A stretch of DNA of 36,084 nt, from positions 1 through 36,084 of the IMG/VR virus record IMGVR_UViG_3300025128_000010; one strand, 5' to 3'. Source of the DNA: a virus. Positions 7,564 to 30,238 of the stretch are shown here, piece after piece. Both the position numbers and the translations under genes were made by a program. The number at the start of each line of letters is the position of its first letter. The first letter of the stretch is position 1. Under the pieces are notes generated by a model. That model did no database searches. It was not told the DNA's origin and worked only from the letters and a program-made list of their open reading frames with translations.

Positions 7564-7850
7564 TGGAGCAACACGCGATTGTGAAAGACCTTCCTCGTGA
7601 AAAAAGTGCTGTCCAAGAGCAGCAAAAGCTTTTGAGGCAGCTGCGTGAAGGGCGTTTGCCTCTCCTGGTCGAAACGCGACACGCTGCAATTATCTTGTTT
7701 GGGGAAGCGAATCGAAAAAATTTGTATCGGCTTTATAAGTTAATTAAATCTGGTGCAATTAAATCAAAAAAACTTGGTGCAAATTATTGGATTTTGAAAA
7801 GTGAACTTGAACGGTTAGCTGACGATGAAACGCATGAACCCAAGCACTAA
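7563..7850 (+). CDS. Excisionase-like helix-turn-helix protein (Xis candidate)
   Basis: This 95-aa protein starts at ATG 7563, coupled to the preceding stop. After a charged helical N-terminus, residues about 40-90 (VETRHAAIILFG, then NLYRLYKLIKSGAIKSKKLG and NYWILKSELERL) have the pattern of MerR/excisionase-type winged helices (HTH_17-like). Phage excisionases are of this size and often lie near the integrase, here about 800 bp away on the other strand. The excisionase role is inferred from fold and place. Confidence 0.6.
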   Translation: MEQHAIVKDLPREKSAVQEQQKLLRQLREGRLPLLVETRHAAIILFGEANRKNLYRLYKLIKSGAIKSKKLGANYWILKSELERLADDETHEPKH

Positions 7851-8118
7851 ACTTGAAAAAATCAGTGGCATTATTAAGTCACGCGGTGTGACACACGGTG
7901 GCTGGCAAGAAAACATGGACAACACAGCCGCCCTTTGGTCGCATTTTTTAGGCATACAAATTTCAAGCTGGCAAGTCTGCGTGATGCTCTGCTTGCTCAA
8001 GGTCAGCCGCATGACCTGTGGCGGTAAATTCAACATTGATGACTTTGACGACCATGTGGGCTATGCAGCGATGGCAGCTGCCTGTGCAGAGAATGAAAAA
8101 AAAGAAAAAGAAGTTTAA
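7825..8118 (+). CDS. DUF6378-like protein
   Basis: This 97-aa protein overlaps the preceding gene by 26 nt. The pattern is one I recall for DUF6378, a phage family of unknown function: GVTHGGWQENMDNTAALWSH, then a VMLCLLKVSRM helix, then DDFDDHVGYAAMAA. The conserved histidines and aspartates suggest a helical bundle with a metal or nucleotide site. A nucleotide pyrophosphohydrolase (MazG-like) role is an untested idea. ATG 7834 is an alternative start. Confidence 0.7.
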   Translation: MKRMNPSTKLEKISGIIKSRGVTHGGWQENMDNTAALWSHFLGIQISSWQVCVMLCLLKVSRMTCGGKFNIDDFDDHVGYAAMAAACAENEKKEKEV

Positions 8119-10456: not shown

Positions 10457-10533
10457 CGCGGGGTGGAGCAGTTTGGTAGCTCGACAGGCTCATAACCTGT
10501 AGGTCGTAGGTTCAAATCCTACCCCCGCAACCA
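10457..10533 (+). tRNA. Initiator tRNA-fMet (anticodon CAT), complete with CCA
   Basis: The 77-nt sequence folds as a full cloverleaf. The acceptor strands are CGCGGGG and CCCCGCA, with the first-pair C/A mismatch that marks bacterial initiator tRNA. The D-stem is GAGC/GCTC, the anticodon stem ACAGG/CCTGT with loop CTCATAA, and the T-arm GTAGG/CCTAC with TTCAAAT. The encoded CCA ends the gene. The sequence is of the alphaproteobacterial type. It lies beside the integrase region, so it is probably the attP copy of the host's initiator gene and restores a whole gene after integration. It could also be expressed. Confidence 0.95.
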
Positions 10534-28991: not shown

Positions 28992-30238
28992 CTACTCGCT
29001 ACAAATGATTTCAACGACTTTATCTTCATCCATTCGCGTAGCCCCTACTGACATGCAGTAGTAGATTTGATTAGAATAAGATTTATCGCTTCTTTCGCTG
29101 ATACGAGCAGTAATATCTTTACCCACAGCGAGTTTTAATCCATCTTGCGCCCAAGCAATAACCCTGCGTTGGGAGCTTGCATTTGCGTCAAGACGGTTAG
29201 TTATAATGAACTTGAAACCAACAAACGTGTCAATTTCACCCTGCACTAGAGCCTTTCATACCACTACGGTTTTCACCGCCAAAAACATTGTTTGTGGTCT
29301 GGACTATCCCTTCACCCCGTAGGGTGTCGCCCGTCTAGTCTCTACACCTTCCATATGGCTTGGCTCGGGATTAGCATGTTAAAGCCTTCCCCGAATTTGA
29401 GCGAGTTTCGTCTAAAGCTTTCACTTTAGATAGGCAAAGAATTTACCGTGTTAAAGTCTGCACTAGTCACAGTAGTCGAGTTCAGTAAGTCCTCAAGCTG
29501 CTCTGGTGCAACTGCAATATAGGTCTGTATGCTAGGGTCAACATTATTCTCTAAGAGAATTTTTCGTGCTGACACTAATTTTGCAATAGTCAGACCTGCC
29601 GCAGGTGAGCCAACAGCAACTTGATTTGCAGCTGGAAATGAGGTCGTGCTTGACCCATCTTTTCCTGTGCTGCTGTCTGCGAAAGCGGCTGAGATAATTT
29701 CATCATCGACCGCCCTTCCCATAGCCGCTGCCGCAGCTTTTGCATAACTGCTGGTTGGATCAGCAAGTGTTTTGACCTGATCAACACTATCTATCAAGTC
29801 AGCCCACTCATAGTCGACCAATGTTACCATCCGTCTGCTATGGGGGGTCGTCACCAATGGAGTATCTTGGTGGCGACTTGTGCGCTTCCTTCACACTACG
29901 GTTTTCACCGCCATAAAATATGTTTGTGCGCTGGACTTTATCTTCATCTTAAAAAGATGCTGCCCGTCAAGTCTCTACACGTTCCCAAATTAGGGCTTCG
30001 CTCGGTATTAGCATTTCAAAGCCTTCACCGAATTTGAGCAGTTTTCGGCTAAAGTTCACACTCTAGCTAGGCGAAAATTCACCGCAGCTGCTGAACCGAC
30101 TTGATCAAAAAAAGCTTTTTCACCAGTTACAGATTCTTCATCGACAGCAGACCGCAAAAGCGACCCCATCTGTTGACTCAGCATCTGCACGTTTGCACTA
30201 AACTGGTTGACAAAAGCTGTTGTAATTTGCGTAGACAT
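28992..30238 (-). CDS. Major capsid protein, split by two group I introns
   Basis: This is the shell protein of the head. The gene has three exons: 30238-30081, 29891-29445 and 29256-28992, totalling 870 nt or 289 aa. Exon 1 ends FDQVGSAAAV, and splicing restores RKRTSRHQDTPL at the start of exon 2 and NTV/KALVQGEIDTF at the second junction, which is the order I know from related podovirus capsids. Unspliced, exon 1 meets a stop after ARV, exon 2 is preceded by an in-frame TGA and ends after PI. Both introns interrupt codons after the second base (GT|A). Exon 1 has GAAAGGG before ATG 30238. Scaffold precedes and a second head protein follows. Splice sites were set by P1 pairing, ending G and frame; they agree with each other. 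Confidence 0.9.
29257..29444 (-). ncRNA. Group I intron 2 in the capsid gene, 188 nt, no ORF
   Basis: The RNA core is textbook. Q and R elements are AAUCCCGAGCCAAGCC and GUGUAGAGACUAGACGGGC, and S is GGGAUAGUCC. Helices are P1 (exon GGU with GCC, U.G at the splice site, loop UUC), P2 CUAAAG/CUUUAG, P3 UCGCUC/GGGCGA, P4 UUCGGG/CCCGAG, P7 GACUA/UAGUC, P8 CACCC/GGGUG and P9 CGGU-GAAA-ACCG. The guide segment UUCUUU also pairs with the 3' exon AAAGG (P10). It ends in G. There is no homing endonuclease. Confidence 0.92.
29892..30080 (-). ncRNA. Group I intron 1 in the capsid gene, 189 nt, no ORF
   Basis: It has the same core as intron 2: AAUACCGAGCGAAGCCC (Q), GUGUAGAGACUUGACGGGC (R) and GAUAAAGUCC (S). 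Helices are P1 (exon GGU|GAA with UUCGCC, U.G at the splice site), P2 GCUAGAG/CUUUAGC, P3 CUGCUC/GGGCAG, P4 UUCGGU/ACCGAG, P7 GACUU/AAGUC, P8 CAUCUU/AAGAUG and P9 CGGU-GAAA-ACCG. Compared with intron 2, P2, P3, P4, P7 and P8 differ by paired changes that keep the helices. It ends in G (GUAGUGUG). No ORF. Confidence 0.92.

Follow-up and report, generated by a model that had tools for sequence, protein, structure and literature searches.

Two small group I introns in the major capsid gene of an uncultured phage and their relatives in homologous capsid genes

Introns of phages are usually discussed in genes of DNA metabolism and lysis, where their presence is explained by endonuclease homing. The gene considered here encodes a major capsid protein and would rank among those with the strongest expression. 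The locus described here raises the question of what two segments are that interrupt a capsid reading frame, whether they leave the message, and how they arrived. It lies in IMG/VR record IMGVR_UViG_3300025128_000010, a metagenome assembly of an uncultured phage, all 36,084 bases of which were analyzed (the window). On its minus strand, the capsid frame is interrupted at two places within 28992-30238. A sequence-only reading had assigned both segments to small group I introns. Our analysis led us to the view that the capsid gene is very probably split by two ORF-less, IC3-like group I introns, which are predicted to splice themselves out and to have spread through recombination at the capsid locus.

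Two group I introns in the capsid gene

The gene, its introns, and the elements of their exon contacts and cores are arranged as follows:

28992..30238, minus strand: major capsid protein gene, three exons, 288 amino acids when spliced (PF19821 / phrog_3437)
30081..30238, minus strand: exon 1, 158 nt, ATG at 30238, ending ...GCGGT inside codon 53 (profile-guided spliced alignment)
29889..30080, minus strand: intron 1, a type A group I intron of 192 nt with no ORF, at site 53 (RF00028, homologues, splicing profile, L135)
30073..30076, minus strand: P10 strand UUUC of intron 1, partner GAAG of the 3' exon at 29885-29888 (P10 count, type A introns)
30070..30072, minus strand: guide (IGS) GCC of intron 1, P1 partner GGU of the 5' exon at 30081-30083 (P1 kept in 35 of 35)
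29969..29973, minus strand: P7 5' strand GACUU of intron 1, partner AAGUC at 29934-29938, guanosine-binding helix (helix 9)
29445..29888, minus strand: exon 2, 444 nt (homologue alignment and profile-guided splicing)
29257..29444, minus strand: intron 2, a type A group I intron of 188 nt with no ORF, in the Val codon at profile site 199 (RF00028, R2, homologues)
29436..29439, minus strand: P10 strand CUUU of intron 2, partner AAAG of the 3' exon at 29253-29256 (P10 count)
29433..29435, minus strand: guide (IGS) GCC of intron 2, partner GGU of the 5' exon at 29445-29447 (alignment of 35 introns)
29336..29340, minus strand: P7 5' strand GACUA of intron 2, partner UAGUC at 29302-29306 (alignment of 35 introns)
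28992..29256, minus strand: exon 3, 265 nt with the stop codon counted (homologue alignment and profile-guided splicing)

Removal of both introns yields a 288-aa capsid protein matching 80 intronless viral contigs; almost all of these matches span residues 1 to 289 of an earlier 289-aa version. Scored in that version, the spliced protein matched PF19821 (Pfam) over its full length with 303.4 bits (profile positions 1-293) and phrog_3437 (PHROGs) with 309.1 bits. Pelagiphage isolates, e.g., HTVC034P and HTVC010P, show a capsid match of ~64% that is uninterrupted. Judged by these matches, the gene encodes a PF19821 major capsid protein, kin to that of pelagiphage HTVC010P; the locus holds the sole PF19821 match among the scanned window proteins. 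That two segments break the frame was borne out, and the homologues do not run on through either insert.

Profile-guided spliced alignment placed intron 1 at 30080..29889 (192 nt) and returned a protein of 288 aa. The sequence-only reading had let this intron end at 29892, with a length of 189 nt and a spliced protein of 289 aa, which we rejected: this end adds an arginine (R54) for which none of the 80 intronless homologues has a counterpart. The intron instead closes with ...GTGTGAAG at 29889 and is followed by GAAGCGC. Intron 2, at 29444..29257 (188 nt), lies exactly where it had been proposed, with a junction in agreement with homologues and splicing profile. Direct DNA evidence of the exact insertion of intron 1 came from L135, a near-identical natural allele in which intron 2 is present and intron 1 absent. 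L135 aligns with the window in two parts, of 96.9% and 92.2% identity, on either side of the intron 1 segment, and the L135 exon runs straight across site 53 (GCTGCGGTTAAACGC, compared with GCTGCGGTGAAGCGC in the spliced window).

Both segments exceeded the gathering cut-off of 50 bits in a search with RF00028, intron 1 with 69.0 bits (E 1.2e-15, 30090-29912) and intron 2 with 59.6 bits (E 7.3e-13, 29454-29280), each over model positions 1-253. The family model R2, which includes the window rows, scored them at 203.7 and 211 bits, respectively. An Rfam scan of the whole window reported these two group I introns and one tRNA, and no further group I introns outside the capsid gene. Neither intron (192 and 188 nt) contains a homing endonuclease ORF.

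For evaluation of the fold, 35 related introns, including both window introns, were aligned and counted over P1, P2, P3, P4, P5, P6, P6a, P7, P8, P9.0, and P9 (12 helices). Standard pairs filled 97.9% of the structure cells compared with 81.0% for shuffled partners, 28 of 49 pairs had changed on both sides, and none of 500 shuffles reached the real structure on any measure. Sliding the partner by 1-3 columns lowered pairing to 29-43%. Across this set, covariation maintains both the P3-P8 domain and the P4-P6 domain, together with the P3/P7 pseudoknot; P7 of intron 1 (helix 9 of the counted structure) is 100% paired with a U-A/A-U exchange. The compensating changes described earlier between the two window introns in P2, P3, P4, P7, and P8 were seen in the alignment, and the U.G pair at the 5' splice site and the terminal G are present in both.

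P1 is constant, exon GGU pairing with intron GCC and leaving a U.G at the splice site in 35/35 introns. Across 63 unique introns, T precedes every one and a terminal G closes 62; the sole exception is a site-84 intron of L138, whose boundary is probably misplaced, given that its match to R3 starts at a different point. The bases immediately before GCC form P10 with whichever 3' exon adjoins, amounting to 75 of 88 pairs over distinct type A cases (shuffled mean 56.5, maximum 66 in 10,000 shuffles). Because P10 played no part in placing the boundaries, it provides independent support for them. Single-sequence folding also beat shuffles for both window introns (z about -2.6). Two ORF-less group I introns with exact boundaries and functional constraint are present in the window capsid gene; besides RF00028, the P1-P9 covariation, and the P1/P10 exon contacts, the restored PF19821 protein and the natural empty allele back this claim. 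Removal of both introns from the capsid RNA in the cell is predicted from sequence. The intron alignment has no P5abc extension, and the nearest outside relatives are tRNA introns; the type A introns may belong to subgroup IC3, with a likeness to the Azoarcus tRNA intron.

An intron family in homologous capsid genes

A P7 pattern derived from the window introns led to 84 viral contigs, mostly capsid genes of the PF19821 family. Resolution of these contigs by spliced alignment, together with an exon-2 search, resulted in a tally of 82 introns in 62 homologous capsid genes (contigs), distributed over 15 sites. One intron was found in 45 genes, two in 14, and the maximum of three in 3, with 17 of the genes being partial. 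No ORF was found inside any of the 82 capsid introns, the longest of which has at most 266 nt. Among the best 80 exon-2 matches, a non-random sample, about 9 carry introns. A scan for the 3'-end pattern contributed only one extra capsid locus (L180), and the spliced alignments of L243 and L257 were discarded as artefacts.

The introns fall into two types, which RF00028 recognises alike. Type A occupies six sites, always after GGU, at capsid-profile residues 53, 65, 91, 199, 206, and 279. Type B occupies nine sites (residues 43, 61, 64, 66, 69, 84, 107, 159, and 259), and its guide varies along with its exon.

Extension of the search to 50 whole records of the lineage gave 37 RF00028 matches in 28 of them, all 37 representing capsid introns; record by record, the count equals that of the introns mapped before in the capsid gene, which leaves no match for other genes. 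The remaining 22 records had zero matches, and model R2 agreed with RF00028 for the records it covered. As the records were selected via the capsid gene or the intron, absence elsewhere holds for these records and is no phage-wide census. The same records, many of them fragments, were searched for the endonuclease families HNH, GIY-YIG, and HNH_3: HNH and GIY-YIG were absent, and HNH_3 occurred in 2 of the 50, but not in the window.

Small introns free of endonucleases recur in this way at 15 sites of one capsid gene, and the marine phage lineage concerned has many relatives in the environment. Since such genes are split by gene callers, surveys of uncultured phages that rely on the capsid may miss or misread them.

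Splicing, spread, and competing explanations

In the proposed splicing pathway, the end of the 5' exon (GGU) in the capsid pre-mRNA would dock on the guide GCC in P1, and a guanosine bound in P7 would cut after the U of the 5' exon. P10 would then align the 3' exon for ligation, and the joined exons would provide a continuous capsid message of 288 codons. The introns would represent a lineage living in capsid genes without an endonuclease of its own. Their spread between phages would proceed by recombination of the capsid locus plus flanking exon, as the data for intron 1 suggest, with occasional moves to new GGU sites, to which the intron tree points.

The evidence on movement derives from alleles and from this tree. 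Coding differences between the window and L135 concentrate beside site 53, with 31 in 191 nt compared with 26 in 673. L106, which carries an intron at site 53 too, shares 20 of these 31 differing bases with the window and 6 with L135, while away from the site it shares 8 with the window and 13 with L135. The exon flanking intron 1 looks as if it had been co-converted with the intron. This tract, known from one allele pair and compatible with intron loss in L135, looks to fit endonuclease homing or ordinary recombination, gain or loss alike. The intron tree separates the capsid introns, as one clade (support 100/99) in which an intron from an SU10-type capsid is nested, from those of phage tRNA genes. 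A single clade is rejected for the site-199 introns (AU p 0.0033), and introns of sites 53, 65, 91, 206, and 279 are placed among them; site-53 introns occupy three positions, with a single clade not being rejected (p 0.10). Support in the interior of the tree is poor. That one window intron arose from the other by recent duplication is not favoured, because each is closer to introns of other phages than to the other copy. We infer transfer by recombination and ectopic moves to GGU sites.

Several other explanations were weighed. The record being a metagenome assembly, the segments might be assembly or chimera artefacts, but a separate record (L123) matches the window at 99.99% identity along 10,635 bases, with both introns unchanged, and related introns sit at exact sites in 62 contigs, which leaves this explanation with next to no probability. 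Inactive remnants, staying in the RNA and breaking the capsid gene, would be conceivable as long as splicing is read from sequence; nevertheless, across 35 introns the catalytic core, P1, and P10 have been kept or show compensating changes, the exons have remained open, most codon differences between the window and L135 are synonymous (35, compared with 10 nonsynonymous), and the scanned window proteins include no second PF19821 match, rendering this highly improbable. More weight is due to collaborative homing, in which intronless capsid DNA would be cut by an endonuclease whose gene lies at another locus of the same phage or in a co-infecting phage. The process is known for ORF-less phage introns (PMC3984707), the tract adjoining site 53 resembles co-conversion, and capsid introns with endonuclease ORFs exist (a LAGLIDADG frame in L083). 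The endonuclease search outlined above speaks against it, and 15 different sites would demand many specificities, so that we consider it rather unlikely.

Movement at the RNA level is, in our estimation, a slightly weaker candidate. A free intron would reverse-splice into capsid mRNA at GGU via its GCC, followed by reverse transcription and recombination into DNA. All six type A sites in the PF19821 capsid family follow GGU with a constant guide, introns of five sites lie among those of site 199, and no endonuclease is intron-encoded. However, splicing itself needs GGU and GCC, so survivors would show both whatever their arrival route; no reverse transcriptase was identified, the resolution of the tree is weak, and the pathway in general is without direct experimental support (PMC3984707). 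Still more doubtful is its wider form, an endonuclease-free intron lineage specialised on capsid genes of unrelated families that reaches GGU sites by guide-directed RNA-level insertion; if this were true, the capsid transcript would be a natural arena for reverse splicing. Spread by recombination of the capsid locus is the reading we prefer, and the matched filled and empty alleles allow both endonuclease-free intron movement and the tolerance of the capsid gene to be tested.

Known phage introns and relatives in other genes

The sequence-only reading had considered two such small, ORF-less introns in the structural gene with the highest expression unusual. This stands for a capsid-restricted, endonuclease-free, multi-site family, but not for capsid-gene introns as such, which have been published for LittleE and Tuc2009 (PMC3706429) and which dozens of uncultured relatives and unrelated capsid families carry. 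The mycobacteriophage LittleE contains a group I-type intron in its major capsid gene, with splicing proven by RT-PCR (PMC3706429); as in the window, a U ends the 5' exon and a G ends the intron. It differs by having one intron with a putative endonuclease on the opposite strand, in another phage and capsid, whereas the window gene has a pair of small introns, both ORF-less, that belong to a multi-site family. As cited in the same paper, the lactococcal siphovirus Tuc2009, outside the window lineage, shares a group I intron in a capsid-subunit gene. Staphylococcus phage Twort, as cited in PMC3888941, resembles the window in having two group I introns in one gene, its host being the ribonucleotide reductase gene nrdE rather than a structural gene. 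In the Jug huge gut phages (360-402 kb), small group I introns of about 206 nt are numerous, and metatranscriptome reads confirm part of them; they are spread across terL, nrdD, and polymerase, together with many endonucleases (PMC12363816), whereas the window lineage has introns in one gene only and hardly any endonuclease. No report of capsid introns in the window lineage was found in a literature search that reached few subscription papers. As far as found, the capsid-restricted, endonuclease-free, multi-site family is new, and capsid genes emerge as a recurrent, little-noticed home for introns without a mobility gene.

Beyond PF19821 capsids, further matches to the P7 pattern were largely phage tRNA genes (ARAGORN), and 45 of 118 bacterial pattern matches lie inside intron-bearing tRNAs called by the same program. 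The type A model scores IC3-like tRNA introns at about 130-160 bits. These phage and bacterial introns have the same P7 motif as the capsid type A introns, but sit in anticodon arms, with the capsid introns being a separate clade. All remaining identified protein genes with a match were capsids. In another phage, the SU10-type capsid gene at L147:386-1435 (-) (PF17236, 121.5 bits) is split by three introns, one of type A and two of type B, the kinds also seen in PF19821 capsids, and L083 and L096 match other major head families. In L083:3571-4946 (-), of capsid family phrog_9953, a type A-like intron lies near the start, with the LAGLIDADG frame nearby within the split gene. The type B pattern was found in 105 contigs, the host genes of which were counted by cluster, not singly: 8 of 44 upstream-exon clusters were SU10-type capsids (phrog_1328), others including ribonucleotide reductase and further head proteins. 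Capsid genes are therefore a recurrent, non-exclusive home of type B-like introns.

Two loci were recorded in addition. L108:3556-5017 (+), from a 281-kb phage record, contains three type A-like introns within 1.5 kb; no tRNA was called there by ARAGORN, and the introns probably sit in three neighbouring tRNA genes, because their flanks resemble anticodon arms. L393:3563-4254 (+), from a 38-kb record, has two type B pattern matches ~650 nt apart in one apparent capsid gene.

Elsewhere in the window, a tyrosine integrase gene (PF00589, 8635-9927, minus strand) lies near a tRNA-Met gene (10457-10530, plus strand); this proximity suggests that the phage, whose pelagiphage relatives are lytic, might follow a temperate life style with integration at a tRNA. 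An Erf-like single-strand annealing protein (PF04404; 6671-7336, plus strand) is a recombinase that could aid the swapping of capsid alleles between co-infecting phages. A 97-aa frame (7825-8118, plus strand) matches PHROG families labelled phosphofructokinase (phrog_474), which is odd for so short a phage protein.
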